A stretch of DNA of 64,000 nucleotides from Pseudoscardovia suis. Lineage in GTDB: Bacteria > Actinomycetota > Actinomycetes > Actinomycetales > Bifidobacteriaceae. A program made the translations under genes and the position numbers. Shown piece after piece: positions 10,058 through 36,084 of the stretch. Location: contig NZ_PGFC01000002.1 of assembly GCF_002797875.1 (NCBI RefSeq), positions 248,001 through 312,000 of the forward strand. Reading direction: 5' to 3'. Below the pieces are notes generated by a model. It saw nothing but the letters and a program-made list of their open reading frames with translations. It did no database searches and was not told where the DNA came from. Each line of letters opens with the position of its first letter. Within the stretch, counting starts at the first letter, position 1.

Positions 10058-10609
10058 ATGTTCGCCGAATCGGACTCCAAGGGCACTGCAGCATGGATTC
10101 ATCCCGATGGTCAAGTGCCAGTGATGGTGCTTGTCGTAGTGATTGTGCTCCTCGTACTGCTGGGGCAACTCTTTGGCTCGCGATCTTCCAAAGGCGCGAA
10201 ACCCGAATACCGGTATCGTGCGCGCACATCCGTGATGTCGGCGAGAGAAGAGGAGTTTTATCATCGCCTCACCGCGATTTTGGGACCCCGGTATCTCGTG
10301 TTCCCGCAGATGCATCTGTCGGCATTGCTTGACTGGCACATCAAAGGGCAGAATTGGAATGCGGCGCGCTCCAGCATCAACGGCAAGTCAGTGGACTACG
10401 CAGTGGTGGAAGCCGATACGCTGCAGCTGCTGTGCGCTATCGAACTGGATGACCACACACACGACCGTCCTGACCGCGTTGAACGCGACCGGCTGGTTGA
10501 AAGAATCTTCAGTTCCGCGGGATTGCCCTTGGTGCGCTTCCGCGACGTCGAACGGATGTCGGATTCCCAAGTAAGAGACGCCGTTTTCTCGCACATGCGT
10601 AGAATGTAG
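10058..10609 (+). CDS. Membrane-anchored DUF2726 protein
   Basis: I place the start at ATG 10058 (AAGGAA 10 bases upstream), giving 183 residues; the frame is open further upstream over the pnp stem-loop. Residues 20-38 form one transmembrane helix. The rest matches DUF2726: an EEFYHRL block, LVFPQMHLSALLD, VDYAVVEADTLQLLCAIELDD with an acidic cluster, then LVERIFSSAGLPLVRFRD. The DUF2726 fold is related to restriction-endonuclease-like (PD-(D/E)xK) proteins, so a nuclease-like role is possible but unproven. The stop is 2 bases before the next ATG, so the two genes probably form an operon. Confidence 0.75.
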   Translation: MFAESDSKGTAAWIHPDGQVPVMVLVVVIVLLVLLGQLFGSRSSKGAKPEYRYRARTSVMSAREEEFYHRLTAILGPRYLVFPQMHLSALLDWHIKGQNWNAARSSINGKSVDYAVVEADTLQLLCAIELDDHTHDRPDRVERDRLVERIFSSAGLPLVRFRDVERMSDSQVRDAVFSHMRRM

Positions 10610-10611
10610 CC

Positions 10612-29688: not shown

Positions 29689-29949
29689 GGCGTCCTGTAG
29701 GACGCTCATAGGTCGATGGGAGGTTCCAGCGACTGCATTGCTGAATGGGATCGTGATTGTCGGTGTCGTTGTATGCCGCAGGCATTGATTCGCGGTACGC
29801 TGTTGGGTGAATGTCAGACGGCTTACAGTTCGAAGTGGAATCGTGATATGTTGAGATTCCTCGAGAATTTTCTGGATTTCGCGTTTTCTTCAAAGTCGGC
29901 ATGACACAATAGCAAACAGTAGGTGCATGCCGCAATCAAGGAGGTAGTC

Positions 29950-32061
29950 GTGGACGAGGATGCGAGCGATGTGCTCTGGGCAATCGAAGTCGATGGCGTG
30001 GAGCTCACCCGTGTCAAGCCAGGTGAATCCGTCGTTGTGGGTCGCAAACCCATCCGGCCGATGGTCGAGGCGGATGCCGACCGGCGTGTTGATGTGGCCG
30101 ATTCCGAAAAATCGATGAGCAAACGGCATGCCAAGCTCACCGTGGATGCCTATGGACGCGCGATGCTGGAGGATCTGGGTTCGACGAACGGCACCTTCGT
30201 GGTGCGTGATGATGGCGGGCTGATGAGGGTTCCGCTAGGCACTCAAATTACGTTCCAGCGTTCCCCCATGCATTTGCAATTCGGCGACAAGGCTGTTGAT
30301 TTCCGCGAGGTTTCCTCGGATGATACCGGTGAGCATCCGGTGCAGAGTCTGTTCGAGAACCTCACTCCTGATCAGATCGCCAATGCGGCGAATGGTGCGA
30401 TGAGCGTGGATCAGATTCTTGATGTGCGCGCCGGCGAGCCCACCACAGCTTTTGATGCGAACGCGGTGCGCGGAAGGGTGCATGAGCTCAATACCGCGCA
30501 TTTGGTGCAATCATATGTGACGACAAGCCCTGCGCCAGAGGAGTGGGATGGCACGCACGGTCCCACGAATGGTGCCCAGAGCAACGCACAGGGGTCGGTC
30601 CTTGTGCACAACGGTGCGTACTCCCACGCTGATGGAATCGTCGCGGAGAGCGTTGTTGCCGAGAACGTCGTGGCGCAAGCCGCGGCACACGATGATTCGG
30701 ATGAGGCGAACGCAGGAATCATGGGCGCTGATGGTCCATCGGCTGCTCAATCCGCGTCGGCAGCGCAGAGTGCGTCGGTAGCAAACGGTGAGTCAGAAGC
30801 AAACGGTGCGTCGGAAACAAACGGTGAGTCGCAAACTGGTGGCAATCCCGCCCCGGACGCATCGGCTGGTGTAACGACACCGGTTGTTGCAGAGGCGACG
30901 ACTGTTGCTGCTGCGGAGTCTGTGACAGACACAGCATCCGTCGAGTCAGCATCCCAGCCGTTTGAGAACGAAACCGAAGTACCGGCTTCTGAAGTCCCTG
31001 ATGCTGCGGATGCCGTCATGACTCCCGGTAACACTGTGGAGGGGGCGACACAATCGCAACAGAGTGAAGGCGTCGTCGCTGATGCTGCAGCTGTCGATAC
31101 TGCTCAATCCGCTAATACCGCTGAATCCGCTGGTGCTGCTGAATCCCGTGATGTTGCAGATTCGCTCGTTACTGATGCATCCGTCGGTACCGTTGAATCT
31201 ACCGGTACCGTTGCCTCCACCAATGTTTCTGAATCCGAGGGTAGCCAGACAGCTGGGAACGCCCCGACGACGGAAGAAGAGACACAATCCCAGAGTGATT
31301 CGCAATCGCCCGAGGCCTCTTCGCGCCAGTCGCAGATCCAGTCGCAGGCCCAGTCCCAGGTTCAGGAGCGCTACCAGGCACAGAATGAGACGCCCGACCA
31401 TGAGGCGTCCTATCCTGTCACGGCATCGTTCCCCATCCGTAGGACCTACAGCCAGGCGACGAATTATTCCGGTGATTATCAGACCACTGATTCCTCCACA
31501 TGGCCTGCGACAGGGCAACATCATGGTTTCGACTCCGAGGCCGCGAATCTTTCCGCAGCTTCCGCAGCGGCTCAAACGTATCCTGCAACAGCCCAAGGCA
31601 CGGCTGCAGCTGCCTCGGATGCGCGGTTCCGCCCGCAGCGGGAGGAGGACGAGCGGTTTGCTGTGCATCAGCAATCCCAACAGGGGATGCATGAATCGCG
31701 GGGCGGATCTGACAACACGTCGGCGTTTGCGAAGGCATCGTTCTCCACCCCGGTGACGAATCCGCGATATGACGCAGGCTCAGTGCTCGATCGGCTGTCG
31801 AACGGACAGTTCCCCGCGCAGCAGGCCGACTCTGAAGATGATCGTCTGATCGATGGGTTCTCGATACGACAGGCACGCACCACGGCGGATTATCAGCAGC
31901 AGTTCCGGATGGCGCAGCATCCGCAGCTCCTTCCGTTCTTGGCGATGAACCCGTCGCTGTACGGTGATTTATACGCATGGCTCGCAGCGCAGGGCAATGC
32001 CGACGTTGAATCCGCATTGAACGGCAATGCCGGTTATCTGGCTTGGAAACAAGGGAAATGA
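29950..32061 (+). CDS. FHA-domain protein with long low-complexity region
   Basis: The start is GTG 29950, 5 bases after a perfect AAGGAGG, giving 703 residues. An FHA phosphothreonine-binding domain spans about 20-110, with VVVGRKPIRP, MSKRHAKLTVD and LEDLGSTNGTFV, so the phosphopeptide-contact Arg, Ser-x-x-His-like turn and Asn-Gly are present. From about 185 to 610 the chain is Ala/Ser/Glu/Gln-rich and probably disordered, with small repeats such as NGESEANGASETNGES. The last 50 residues (QFRMAQHPQLLPFLAMNPSLYGDLYAWLAAQG, in part PQLLPFLAMNPSLY) look folded. The stop lies 1 base before the next ATG, so both are one operon; FHA binding to a phosphorylated partner is expected. Confidence 0.85.
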   Translation: MDEDASDVLWAIEVDGVELTRVKPGESVVVGRKPIRPMVEADADRRVDVADSEKSMSKRHAKLTVDAYGRAMLEDLGSTNGTFVVRDDGGLMRVPLGTQITFQRSPMHLQFGDKAVDFREVSSDDTGEHPVQSLFENLTPDQIANAANGAMSVDQILDVRAGEPTTAFDANAVRGRVHELNTAHLVQSYVTTSPAPEEWDGTHGPTNGAQSNAQGSVLVHNGAYSHADGIVAESVVAENVVAQAAAHDDSDEANAGIMGADGPSAAQSASAAQSASVANGESEANGASETNGESQTGGNPAPDASAGVTTPVVAEATTVAAAESVTDTASVESASQPFENETEVPASEVPDAADAVMTPGNTVEGATQSQQSEGVVADAAAVDTAQSANTAESAGAAESRDVADSLVTDASVGTVESTGTVASTNVSESEGSQTAGNAPTTEEETQSQSDSQSPEASSRQSQIQSQAQSQVQERYQAQNETPDHEASYPVTASFPIRRTYSQATNYSGDYQTTDSSTWPATGQHHGFDSEAANLSAASAAAQTYPATAQGTAAAASDARFRPQREEDERFAVHQQSQQGMHESRGGSDNTSAFAKASFSTPVTNPRYDAGSVLDRLSNGQFPAQQADSEDDRLIDGFSIRQARTTADYQQQFRMAQHPQLLPFLAMNPSLYGDLYAWLAAQGNADVESALNGNAGYLAWKQGK

Positions 32062-32062
32062 C

Positions 32063-35000
32063 ATGGTGAATGATTCGATGCACAATGACGCTGCACAGTC
32101 CGACTACGGAGACGACGCTACACAGAGCGAAGCCGCTGCAAGCGCGCAGGAAACCCAGTCCACGTCGGATGAATCCGCGGCAGTGAATTCCGCCGCTGAA
32201 ATGAACGGTTCCGCTGCCGAAACCATCGAGACCGGGGCGCAGCCGGCTCAAGAGCAGCGCGAGGAATCGTCGATGGACAGGGTGCGCCGTTGGTATTCCG
32301 AATATCGCCGCCAGCATGGCGCGACTCCTATGGATGATATGTCGCGGCTTGTGGAAAGCCTTGACATCACTCACGCACACCCCACGGGCATCGCGCAGCT
32401 TTTTGCGTCGGGACGCGTGCAACTGAGCACACTGTTCCGTGATATCGGTTTTCTGAAGACGGCTGAACGCAATCTGGGCAAAGTGCTGCGCGATTTCCAT
32501 GCCAAGGAACGCACGGATGGCACCGCCAGCCTGTCGCTTGCCGTCGGCATCGCGCAATGGCCGGAGCACTCCATGCCCGTGTTGCTCTACCCGGTCACGG
32601 TCGACGGCGTGGATAGCGAAGATGCCCGTATGTCGCAGGCCGTTATCCGTTTCACCGCTCCTGCGGCAATCAACAGCGCATTCATCGACGAGATGCGACG
32701 CCAGGATGTGTTCCTCGACGCAGACGAATTGATGGATCCTGCATACTACGGTGGCAAGCCGCCGCAGACCGCCGACCTGTTCGCTCTTATCCGCACCAGG
32801 ACGGGTGCGAAAGTGCCGGATTTCACCATCAAATCCGACTTGATTCTGGGCAGTTTCGTCGAATCCTCCACAGTGCTGTTGGCTGATGCCGCCCGAGTGA
32901 TTTCCGCAATGGACCAAGGCAATGCGGCGAATCTTCCGCTCGCAGTGCTCGCTGGCGATAAACGTGCCATGAAGGCGATGTACAACCGCCGGCTGCCCCA
33001 GTATTCGCCACAGGACGCTGATCCCCATGACGAGATGGAAGCCGGGGATGTGAGCAATGCGACTCGATATGCTGCACGGTTGGCAGCCGAAGGCGACAAC
33101 GTGTTTGTCAACGTGTCGTCGGTGGAAGACACCGCTGCTCAGGCGCTCGCTGTCGCATCGCGCGTGGCGCTTGCCGGCAAGACGGCGTTGTATGTGCCGG
33201 GCGTGCCGGAGCAGAAGTTCCGTTTCGCCCATGAGGCACGGATCAATGGCATGACCGACCTGCTGGGGGACCTGTCGGACCCCGATTTCAACGCGAAGCT
33301 CGATTCGCGCCTTGTTTCCGCCGTTGCTTTCTCTGGTGGCGAGGCGACAACGCATTTCGACCAGCTCGCTGATGAGCTTGTTGGCGTGCGCGCGCGTCTG
33401 GGACGCTATCTCGGCGATCTGCATGCGGTCAACAAGGAATGGAACGTTTCGGCGTATCAGGTTATTGAGAATCTGGCGCGAATTTCCAGCAACCCGACGC
33501 ATCCCGCAACGCATGTGAGGTTCGAGGCGAAGACTGTGCATGCGGTTGCCGACCACCTTGATGAGTGGGGCGCAAAACTCACCCGCGCCGCGCAATTGGG
33601 CGAGTTTGAGGATGGTGTGGAGAAAACCGCATGGTATCAGGCTTCGGTCTTCAACGAGGACGAGGCGGTTGACGCGTATCAACGTGTTGTGAGGCTTTTG
33701 ACCGAAACGCTTCCCGCGGTTCGTGAACAGATTGCCGAGACGTCGAAGACCTGTGGTTTCGCGATTCCGGCCAATGCTTCCGAATGGTCGCGTCAGGTCA
33801 CGGTATTGCGCAACCTGCGGCGCGTGATGGATACGTTCCAGCCCGTCATCTTCCAGCGTGACATTCCTGCGATGGTCGAAGCCACGAAATCCAAGCAGGA
33901 ACGAAAGGAGAAGGGTACCACGTTGGGCATGCGCGAACGCCATCGCCTTGCCAAAGAAGCCAAGAGCATGCTGCGCGCTGGCTCGCATGTGGAAGATCTG
34001 CACGCCGCGCTGCAAGTGGCGGTGAAGCAAAACGAGGAATGGCGACGCTTCGTGCCGCATGGCCAGTGGCCGGTGTTGCCCAACAAGCTGGACGACATCA
34101 TCTCGATGGACGAATCCCTGAGCGCCGACCTCACGGCTATGAACTCCGTGCTTGCCACCACGCCGCAGGGTTCCGGATTGGAATCCGTGGGCTTCCAGCA
34201 GTTGGAAGACAGGCTTCGTGCATTGTATGACGATCATTCGGCGCTGGACACGCTCCCGGAGCGCAGCTGCCTGGAACGCGACATTGACAAGGTTGGCTTG
34301 GGCGATTTGTCCGCTGACCTGCGTGTGCGGCGTGTGCCGGTGGAGGCTGTCGCGGATGAGTTCTTGCTCGCCTGGTGGGCGACTGTATTCAACCTTATTG
34401 TGCAGCAGTCTCCGATCATTGCGAGCCAGGATAGTTCTGTGCTCTCGCAGGCGGCGGATCGATTCGCGCAGGTGGACGTGGACCATGTGCGCTCCATTGG
34501 CCCCATGGCTCAGCAAGAGATGATGAAGAGACTTTCCGAGACGCTGTATGCCCATTCTCAGGAAGCCAATCAGCTGCATACATTGCTCGCCACCCCAACG
34601 GTGCTGCCATTCACACGGTTGCGTCGCGATTTCGCGTCGATTCTGGCGGTGGCCAAGCCGATTCTCGTTGGCACGCCTGCTTCGCTTGCCGTGGCAAGTG
34701 GACCGGAACACATCGCCGATGTGGCGATTGTGGACGCGGCATCCCATATGACACCCATTGAGATTCTCACCGTGTTGTCGCGCGTGGACAGCGTGGTGTT
34801 CTTCGGCCATCAGCAGACCTTGTCGTCCGCGGCCATCACGCAGCTCCTGCCGTATTTGGCGCAGGTCAACACACTGTCCACGCCGTCGCATCGCGATCCG
34901 CGCCTGGCATTGTTCCTTGCCGATCACGGCTATGGGGATGTGCGTTTCTCGCTGTCGACCGGCAAGGTGCGCGGAGACGTGCAGTATTCCCGCGTCGACG

Positions 35001-35863
35001 GGGTGGGGATTCCTGAAGAGACCAGCGGTCTGGTGGAGTCCACGAAGCAAGAAGTCAAGGCTGTCGCCGACACGGTTGAGGCGAGGGCGGCTGAATACCA
35101 AGACCTTCCCAAGCGCTACCGCATGTCCATCGTGTGCCTGACCGACACAAACAGGATTCGCATCGGCGCTGAGCTCAAGTCTCGTGCACAACGCACTTCC
35201 GGTCTGCGTGACTTCCTGCGCCATGTGCGCATCATCACCATTTCCGAAGTCGCTGGTGCGGCGGCCGATGATGTCATCCTTGCTTGCAGCTTTGCCAAAG
35301 GCCAACCCAAGCATCTGACTCAGCAGTTCGGAATCATGGAGCAGCCCGGAAGCGACGGCATGCTGCTCGATGCGCTCGCCTTGGCCACGTCTCGCACGAA
35401 TATCATCAGCGCATTCGGCTCCGCCGACATGGATGACGATCGCCTCCGCACGCCGGGCACGCAATTGCTCAAAGAGATGCTGGCATGGTGCGAGCACCTT
35501 TCCGACAGCATGCCCATGCCGCGCGGGCACGCCTCCGACGATGTGATCGTCAATGACCTCGCCAATCGCATCAAGTCCCGCGGACTCACAGTTGAGACGA
35601 ACTACGGTTTCGACGGCGGCGTGCAGGTGCCGCTTGTTGTGGGATTCCCCGGCCGACAATTCCGCTTGGCGGTGAAGGTGGATGACGCACGGTTCATGTC
35701 CGTCCGCTCCGAACGCCAGCGGTATCGCTTCAGCATCGAGAACCTCCGTGAACTGGGTTGGGCAGTCACGTTCATCTGGAGCGTGGCGGCGTTCGTGGAC
35801 CCGGACAAGGAAGTCGATCGCGTCGTAAGCCAGCTTTCCCAGCTGGAGGGCGACGAACTGTGA
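32063..35863 (+). CDS. Degenerate DUF4011-type SF1 helicase / MTES nuclease-like protein
   Basis: A 1266-residue protein starting at ATG 32063. The order of parts matches the large DUF4011 - SF1 helicase - REase_MTES proteins: an N-terminal ERNLGKVLRDF block then SLAVGIAQWPE and MPVLLYPVTV; a helicase core; and at about 1174-1260 an endonuclease-like end with FGFD-type YGFDGGVQVPL and RFSIENLRELGWAVTFIWSV. Every catalytic motif is altered: the Walker A place (about 347-360) reads VNVSSVEDTAAQ without G-x-G-K-[TS]; the Walker B DEAS is DAAS (Asp891); the motif III GDxxQLPP is GHQQTLSS; the nuclease E-C-D-G is KVDD. So it should bind partners or nucleic acid but not hydrolyse ATP. The next gene overlaps its stop (GTGA). 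Confidence 0.75.
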   Translation: MVNDSMHNDAAQSDYGDDATQSEAAASAQETQSTSDESAAVNSAAEMNGSAAETIETGAQPAQEQREESSMDRVRRWYSEYRRQHGATPMDDMSRLVESLDITHAHPTGIAQLFASGRVQLSTLFRDIGFLKTAERNLGKVLRDFHAKERTDGTASLSLAVGIAQWPEHSMPVLLYPVTVDGVDSEDARMSQAVIRFTAPAAINSAFIDEMRRQDVFLDADELMDPAYYGGKPPQTADLFALIRTRTGAKVPDFTIKSDLILGSFVESSTVLLADAARVISAMDQGNAANLPLAVLAGDKRAMKAMYNRRLPQYSPQDADPHDEMEAGDVSNATRYAARLAAEGDNVFVNVSSVEDTAAQALAVASRVALAGKTALYVPGVPEQKFRFAHEARINGMTDLLGDLSDPDFNAKLDSRLVSAVAFSGGEATTHFDQLADELVGVRARLGRYLGDLHAVNKEWNVSAYQVIENLARISSNPTHPATHVRFEAKTVHAVADHLDEWGAKLTRAAQLGEFEDGVEKTAWYQASVFNEDEAVDAYQRVVRLLTETLPAVREQIAETSKTCGFAIPANASEWSRQVTVLRNLRRVMDTFQPVIFQRDIPAMVEATKSKQERKEKGTTLGMRERHRLAKEAKSMLRAGSHVEDLHAALQVAVKQNEEWRRFVPHGQWPVLPNKLDDIISMDESLSADLTAMNSVLATTPQGSGLESVGFQQLEDRLRALYDDHSALDTLPERSCLERDIDKVGLGDLSADLRVRRVPVEAVADEFLLAWWATVFNLIVQQSPIIASQDSSVLSQAADRFAQVDVDHVRSIGPMAQQEMMKRLSETLYAHSQEANQLHTLLATPTVLPFTRLRRDFASILAVAKPILVGTPASLAVASGPEHIADVAIVDAASHMTPIEILTVLSRVDSVVFFGHQQTLSSAAITQLLPYLAQVNTLSTPSHRDPRLALFLADHGYGDVRFSLSTGKVRGDVQYSRVDGVGIPEETSGLVESTKQEVKAVADTVEARAAEYQDLPKRYRMSIVCLTDTNRIRIGAELKSRAQRTSGLRDFLRHVRIITISEVAGAAADDVILACSFAKGQPKHLTQQFGIMEQPGSDGMLLDALALATSRTNIISAFGSADMDDDRLRTPGTQLLKEMLAWCEHLSDSMPMPRGHASDDVIVNDLANRIKSRGLTVETNYGFDGGVQVPLVVGFPGRQFRLAVKVDDARFMSVRSERQRYRFSIENLRELGWAVTFIWSVAAFVDPDKEVDRVVSQLSQLEGDEL

Positions 35864-36084
35864 CGCAGGAATCCTCGCAACAGCCTGCGCCACAGCGCCG
35901 GCGTGGACGTCATCATCGTGTCGTAAGGCAGGGAACCGAATGGTTCGAGGCCGACGGCACGGTAATCGATCCACAGGACCAGCAAACGGAGGCGGCACGC
36001 GAACGGGATGATGATGCGCGCATCCTGACCGAGCTCCCGCCTCATTGGGGCGTATATTCCGAGCGACGTCAGGACGGAGCCTGA
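35860..36084 (+). CDS. Small basic/acidic hypothetical protein, third gene of the FHA operon
   Basis: A 74-residue protein starting at GTG 35860, which overlaps the stop of the degenerate helicase as GTGA and has GGAGGG upstream, so it is very likely translated. It has a basic N-terminal part (PQRRRGRHHRVVRQG), then GTEWFEADGTVID, and an acidic central stretch (ERDDDARI) with a short hydrophobic end (LPPHWGVY). No known domain. Its place as last gene of the operon suggests a role with the FHA/pseudo-helicase pair. The short gap 36085-36134 separates it from the convergent SAF gene. Confidence 0.7.
   Translation: MTQESSQQPAPQRRRGRHHRVVRQGTEWFEADGTVIDPQDQQTEAARERDDDARILTELPPHWGVYSERRQDGA

Follow-up and report, generated by a model that had tools for sequence, protein, structure and literature searches.

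Repeated loss of the helicase motor in a positional core gene of Actinomycetales and its candidate role as a scaffold in bifidobacteria

Introduction

What keeps a large helicase-like gene in place, with an intact frame, once the residues that would drive its motor are gone? This question is raised by a three-gene locus of Pseudoscardovia suis, located in a stretch of 64,000 nucleotides (hereafter, the window) that corresponds to C2:248001-312000 of the 2.25-Mb genome. The locus encodes a protein with an FHA domain, a large protein of the DUF4011, superfamily 1 (SF1) helicase and MTES_1575 nuclease type, and a small protein of 74 residues ending in PPHW (hereafter, the PPHW protein). An initial annotation, made from the sequence alone, had described the three genes as an operon and proposed that the large protein was a pseudo-helicase under phosphorylation-linked control. 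Here, the large protein, its partners and their distribution were analyzed across the family Bifidobacteriaceae and the order.

Results

Catalytic residues of the large protein

The motifs of the large protein were read by aligning it with 79 orthologs, and the catalytic sites were re-scored over 81 sequences from Bifidobacteriaceae. The degenerate motifs listed in the initial annotation (Walker A, DAAS, GHQQTLSS and KVDD) held in the alignment to positional orthologs with intact motifs (Table 1). The Walker A Lys was absent from all 81 sequences, replaced by Thr, Ser, Ala or Gly, and the same was true for the motif II Glu (Ala or Ser instead) and the motif III Gln (0/81 in both cases). In the restriction endonuclease (REase) domain, the upstream Asp was never found (0/81; Pro instead) and the Glu was present in 3/81. 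The four residues expected of an active SF1 helicase, namely Walker Lys, motif II Glu, motif III Gln and the arginine finger, were thus all missing from the window protein, and conservation of the Walker loop was below average within Bifidobacteriaceae. No GxxxxGK[ST] or DEx[SDHQ] pattern was detected elsewhere in the large protein, so that relocated ATPase motifs, an outcome that the initial annotation had named as contrary to its proposal, were not encountered. The search for an active paralog in the P. suis genome yielded weak AAA_11 matches only. Based on these sequence comparisons, the motor is almost certainly non-catalytic. As a separate observation, the residues found in place of motif III, His916 and Thr919 (window 34808-34819), were invariant in 81/81 Bifidobacteriaceae, which resembles the fixation of a new site.

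Domains and predicted fold

Among Pfam families, the large protein matched MTES_1575 only (E 3.9e-12; 46.5 bits against a cut-off of 38.2), with no match to DUF4011, AAA_11 or AAA_12, while motif-intact positional orthologs matched all four. The AlphaFold model of residues 67-1266 reached a mean predicted local distance difference test (pLDDT) value of 86.7, contained two RecA domains with SF1 topology, and retained a strand-loop-helix at the place of the P-loop. Comparisons with Foldseek and VIA-align matched the model to the Upf1-like SF1 helicases Ighmbp2, Upf1, Aquarius, Sen1 and Dna2 (Z 14-16.5), the values being Z 16.5 over 498 aligned residues for Ighmbp2 (root mean square deviation, rmsd, 7.0) and Z 15.7 over 440 residues for Upf1 (rmsd 5.1). 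A sequence-profile search of solved structures gave no match, and these relatives were found by fold comparison only; homology to SF1 helicases is nevertheless secure, since the model still adopts an Upf1/Sen1-like SF1 fold. The proposed descent from SF1 helicases was therefore borne out by structure prediction, and the DUF4011-SF1-MTES architecture stood as regards the fold and the MTES_1575 domain, but not as regards the DUF4011, AAA_11 and AAA_12 segments, which Pfam did not recognize. Judging from sequence and model together, the window protein is a degenerate descendant of the DUF4011-SF1-MTES_1575 family.

Distribution of the gene and parallel loss of the motor

The large gene was found in 128 of 130 good Bifidobacteriaceae genomes and, together with the FHA gene, was retained in a reduced genome of 0.8 Mb. 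Positional orthologs were present in 141/143 good genomes of the order (64 of 65 genera), with a patchy distribution in the class. The gene of the dead helicase is thus part of the positional core of the order as a whole, greatly predates its link to the FHA gene and is much more widespread than that link, and its inheritance was apparently vertical. Downstream of many orthologs, in intact and degenerate lineages alike, lay the mscL, SAF, fmdB and 5-FTHF cyclo-ligase genes; in Actinomyces oris, the order was usp, 'DNA helicase', hypothetical, mscL, SAF, 5-FTHF cyclo-ligase and glp. Nine of the sampled orthologs (L108, L080, L113, L116-L119, L084 and L137) retained GPPGTGKS/T or GAPGTGKT together with DEAS, eight of which had at least the downstream mscL gene in common with the degenerate ones, and a few lineages kept all motifs (GPPGTGKS, DEAS and GDERQLPP).

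In a tree rooted with eight active DUF4011 helicases, the intact motif state was located at the base, and the Walker Lys was lost at least three times independently, under the assumption that it was never regained. The first loss, in which Lys was replaced by Arg, corresponded to a clade comprising L104-L112 except L108; the second, to L088/L136 within the intact clade (support of the grouping, 0.95); and the third, to a large clade including Bifidobacteriaceae (support, 0.82). These repeated losses indicate that the gene outlives its motor, and, since the nuclease Glu was still present in several dead-motor lineages, the motor was lost first there.

Three further observations concern individual lineages. 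The orthologs L104-L107 and L109-L112 (family f38 and others) carried PGTGRTQ at Walker A, had DE changed to ED at motif II in most cases, and retained the nuclease Glu, which from the sequences is a distinct route of motor loss. A family member with a well-assembled 3.0-Mb genome (G007, 99% complete) was devoid of the large gene and had no clear FHA partner. The A. oris ortholog WP_271289505.1 (L254 4041-8354) is named 'DNA helicase' by RefSeq, a label that is probably wrong because related orthologs do not have the Walker lysine.

Selection and shift of constraint

Pairwise ratios of nonsynonymous to synonymous substitution rates (dN/dS) for the large protein ranged from 0.02 to 0.18 between close to moderately distant relatives, the values of close pairs (0.02-0.09) being safer because synonymous sites were near saturation in distant pairs. 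The corresponding range was 0.13-0.49 for the FHA protein, which contains a long linker. The claim that the frame of 1266 codons is kept intact by purifying selection was thereby supported, and the large protein shows what is expected of a pseudoenzyme, with catalytic residues gone and both frame and fold under selection. In the intact clade, where the motor was more conserved than the helical arm, the arm/motor ratio of constraint was 0.70 (interval 0.63-0.77); Bifidobacteriaceae showed the reverse, with a ratio of 1.24 (1.10-1.40). This reversal favours a change of role from engine to binding surface, as supportive evidence rather than proof, given that the compared clades differ in age.

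The small PPHW protein

The 74-residue protein had no match in Pfam. Its signature was a C-terminal D-D-x-R-x-L-x-E-x-P-P-H-W, preceded by a basic stretch in many members. Among the 77 orthologs with enough downstream sequence, a small gene ending in PPH[W/F/Y] directly followed the helicase gene in 60, motif-intact lineages included, and was fused to its C-terminus in another eight, compared with a single occurrence in 229 control stretches. The fusions were scattered over the tree and were also found in metagenome-assembled genomes (MAGs) of basal Bifidobacteriaceae. Taken together, adjacency and fusion represent strong evidence for a joint function of the helicase and the PPHW protein, and suggest that the two probably form a complex. 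On this comparison of loci, the 74-residue protein, and not the FHA protein, is the older, ancient partner of the helicase. In Bifidobacterium reuteri (L190, 7881-11783), the helicase and PPHW frames were merged into a single open reading frame of 1301 residues, corresponding either to a real fusion or to a sequencing frameshift.

The FHA protein

The FHA protein matched two Pfam families, FHA (E 2.5e-8) and, at the C-terminus, LRV_2 (E 1.4e-10), the latter absent from the initial annotation. Its head carries the pocket pattern of a phosphothreonine reader, GR...SxxH...(S/T)xNG (Table 1). The linkage between the FHA and helicase genes was as proposed in core Bifidobacteriaceae (80/80), yet no FHA gene was found beside the helicase gene outside the family or in its basal members g4 and g8. 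The FHA gene most likely joined later, therefore, as an addition in core Bifidobacteriaceae.

In the P. suis genome, five Hanks-type kinase domains and, besides the one in gene 1, three FHA domains were detected. A phosphorylation-dependent recruitment role for the FHA protein, suggested by its pocket, is plausible, at somewhat less than even odds. A second LRV_2 protein, the only other carrier of this domain found in the genome, was located outside the window as a frame of 170 residues (G000:C2:3049-3216). Regarding published data, the signature 'FHA domain protein' reported for the Scardovia clade may be a different FHA gene, nothing was found in the papers searched on the large-protein family or on the FHA-pseudohelicase pair, and the main text of the Bifidobacterium breve transposon sequencing paper held nothing on the essentiality of these loci.

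Gene layout

The second gene starts 1 base past the FHA stop and the third overlaps its stop as GTGA, in agreement with the three-gene layout proposed for positions 29950-36084 (Table 1). An alternative start for the first gene is the in-frame GTG at 29923. The order FHA, helicase and small gene was found in 80/80 named Bifidobacteriaceae, with frequent 4-base overlaps. A scan for promoters and terminators gave signal near chance level, and the operon structure therefore rests on spacing, overlap and conservation. Based on the large protein, the closest named species was Pseudoscardovia radai (77%), one MAG being nearer (87%).

Table 1. Location of the features of the three-gene locus within the window.
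Feature	Position	Strand	Description
Gene 1, FHA protein, 703 aa	29950..32061	+	FHA head, disordered Ala/Ser/Thr/Glu/Gln-rich linker, LRV_2 tail
FHA domain	30034..30201	+	Phosphothreonine-pocket residues G31, R32, S57, H60, S78, T79, N80 and G81 invariant in 81/81 orthologs
Low-complexity, fast-evolving linker	30517..31749	+	Almost no conserved columns
LRV_2 tail, variant leucine-rich repeat	31879..32022	+	Strongly conserved
Gene 2, pseudo-helicase/pseudo-nuclease, 1266 aa	32063..35863	+	DUF4011-like N-terminal part, predicted dead SF1 motor with helical arm, predicted dead MTES REase
DUF4011-equivalent region, residues 67-320	32261..33022	+	Pfam match restricted to orthologs that are motif-intact or carry the Walker K-to-R change
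Former Walker A, residues 351-358	33113..33136	+	VSSVEDTA for GPPGTGKS; K replaced by T357
Helical arm between motifs Ia and II, residues 406-845	33278..34597	+	440 residues; most conserved part in Bifidobacteriaceae
Former motif II	34733..34744	+	DAAS for DEAS; E replaced by A892
Former motif III	34805..34828	+	GHQQTLSS for GDERQLPP
Former motif VI	35378..35389	+	ALAT for TRAR; arginine finger gone
MTES_1575 REase-fold domain	35555..35836	+	KVDD for nuclease ExDG; Lys1205 in place of the catalytic Glu, Pro1190 in place of the upstream Asp
Gene 3, 74-aa small protein	35860..36084	+	Basic N-terminal part, C-terminal DDxRIL-ELPPHW; other lineages have it as a fusion with gene 2

Comparison with known systems

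The anti-phage families ProA/PDC-S37 and Hhe have the domain order DUF4011-SF1-MTES_1575 and a common descent with the large protein, the intact orthologs reaching 777-868 bits for ProA. Against the curated NCBIfam cut-offs (1500 for ProA and 2000 for Hhe), the window protein scored 119 and 43, respectively, and the motif-intact orthologs also stayed below both. Pfam and NCBIfam scores were graded from intact to eroded orthologs, those for ProA being 868, 801, 777, 472, 287, 184 and 119 bits. In contrast to ProA and Hhe, the window protein shows only MTES_1575 above cut-off, has lost the catalytic residues, and is encoded by a core gene rather than a mobile defence gene, with no signs of mobility detected at the large gene. 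Membership in either family was rejected and the protein was not filed under them, as its scores were far under the cut-offs. The suggested kinship to defence-type DUF4011-MTES proteins thus stands to the extent that ProA and Hhe are the nearest curated families, but does not extend to membership in a known defence system. Searches against PHROGs and phages were empty, and the plasmid matches listed were mostly generic DUF4011/DUF3320 proteins; the one long match of the plasmid search lay on an A. oris replicon, where the neighbours agree with the chromosomal context.

The MTES_1575 protein of Microbacterium testaceum is a HEPN-transglutaminase-SF1 helicase-Vsr REase-winged helix-turn-helix (wHTH) protein (PMC3710099), which has the helicase-Vsr REase order in common with the large protein. 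Longer orthologs from other families have a C-terminal tail that, by eye, resembles its wHTH/DUF3320 segment. The large protein differs in that no HEPN domain was found, motor and nuclease are predicted to be dead, and the tail is absent in bifidobacteria. A helicase fold surviving the loss of motifs or activity has also been described for the pseudohelicases PriA of Deinococcus radiodurans and Utp25 of yeast (PMC4504706, PMC9539457). These belong to other helicase families, whereas the large gene encodes an Upf1-like SF1 motor lost repeatedly in one positional gene, to which a dead nuclease and the FHA and PPHW partners are added. Mycobacterial HelD (PMC7749160), an actinobacterial SF1-like protein, was among the structural matches. 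In this case, the match was confined to the RecA core. HelD is not known to have a DUF4011 or REase part. With no family description found in the papers searched, the large protein appears from its sequence to be a pseudohelicase of a previously undescribed sort.

Elsewhere in the window, an open frame of 244 residues (about 10240-10610) gave a weak, sub-cut-off MTES_1575/REase-like match (24.7 bits), and may encode a small protein of nuclease fold that has a membrane segment at its N-terminus.

Discussion

The large protein probably survives as a scaffold and not as an enzyme, considering that its motor died separately several times, the gene of the small partner stayed, and the FHA gene was added. 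In such a scheme, the gene 2 product would be a pseudoenzyme derived from a DUF4011-SF1 helicase-REase ancestor, lacking helicase-type ATP binding and hydrolysis as well as DNA cutting, and acting as a fold-preserving scaffold with the helical arm as its main binding surface. The PPHW protein would be an ancient subunit, docking probably via the conserved peptide at its C-terminus. The FHA protein encoded upstream in core Bifidobacteriaceae would join the complex as a reader, its head binding a phosphothreonine placed on the complex or on a client by a PknB-like kinase of the cell, and its linker and LRV_2 tail tethering the client to the scaffold. For the scheme as a whole, comprising a non-catalytic scaffold and a PPHW subunit, joined by an FHA reader in bifidobacteria, the chances are nearly balanced, leaning slightly against. 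More tentatively, the motor may have been shed repeatedly because a scaffold role for the PPHW protein was always the important one, bifidobacteria having added FHA-LRV phosphorylation wiring.

Several observations weigh against this scheme. By the motif test, the small protein was missing in 9 of the 77 orthologs (including four of one clade and the motif-intact L108), and is therefore not universally obligatory; likewise, the large gene was missing from some very reduced Bifidobacteriaceae genomes and from G007, and is hence not absolutely essential. When the B. reuteri helicase-PPHW fusion was modelled with AlphaFold, the small part had pLDDT values of about 29-59, and owing to this low confidence of the fused tail no docking can be read from it. 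In addition, the dead motor may still bind nucleic acid.

This last point leads to the least improbable of the alternatives, a repair or structural factor in which the complex would mark or protect repair sites while the dead motor would hold on passively to DNA or RNA. The fold is that of nucleic-acid helicases, and the nuclease Glu persists in several dead-motor lineages, where nucleic-acid work may thus have outlived the motor; however, the RecA regions that would contact nucleic acid belong to the less conserved portions of the protein in Bifidobacteriaceae, and this explanation is considered unlikely. Somewhat less probable is a domesticated or sensor-type phage defence, in which a dead relative of ProA/PDC-S37/Hhe would sense phage nucleic acid and signal via its FHA partner. 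The nearest curated families are indeed anti-phage, and a defence hotspot of Pseudomonas aeruginosa is bordered by a DUF4011 gene, itself a core gene (PMC10250203), whereas the gene studied here is a single-copy positional core gene of the order, apparently vertical and without defence-island context, and both its low ProA score and the empty phage searches speak against such a function. A slightly slimmer chance is given to a HelD-like clearing or recycling factor, whose SF1-like body and arm would act on RNA polymerase, or on some other machine that handles nucleic acid, independently of ATPase activity. The Mycobacterium smegmatis HelD-RNA polymerase structure was matched (Foldseek E 1.3e-4; Z 13.6 over 274 residues) and the arm is the most conserved part of the protein, but the match reflects the common RecA core, generic SF1 helicases score equally or higher, and no conserved link to transcription genes was observed, the rplL neighbour being family-specific.

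Pseudoenzymes with hidden activity are known, and the invariance of His916 and Thr919 would fit an active ATPase relying on non-canonical residues. This is very improbable, given that Walker Lys, motif II Glu, motif III Gln and the TR of motif VI are all gone, no alternative Walker motif exists in the protein, and the Walker loop is less conserved than the family average. Finally, a decaying gene or an assembly artefact, which the missing catalytic motifs might evoke, is refuted, with negligible residual probability, by frames and order intact in 80/80 relatives, by the dN/dS values and by retention in the 0.8-Mb genome.

A positional helicase that loses its ATPase site in parallel lineages, while place, fold and, mostly, the small partner are kept, represents a natural experiment on the role of this helicase family, and annotation pipelines probably misname its degenerate orthologs. 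If the large protein is a scaffold as proposed, it would belong to a so far undescribed core complex present in most Actinomycetales, and to a phospho-signalling branch in gut bifidobacteria.

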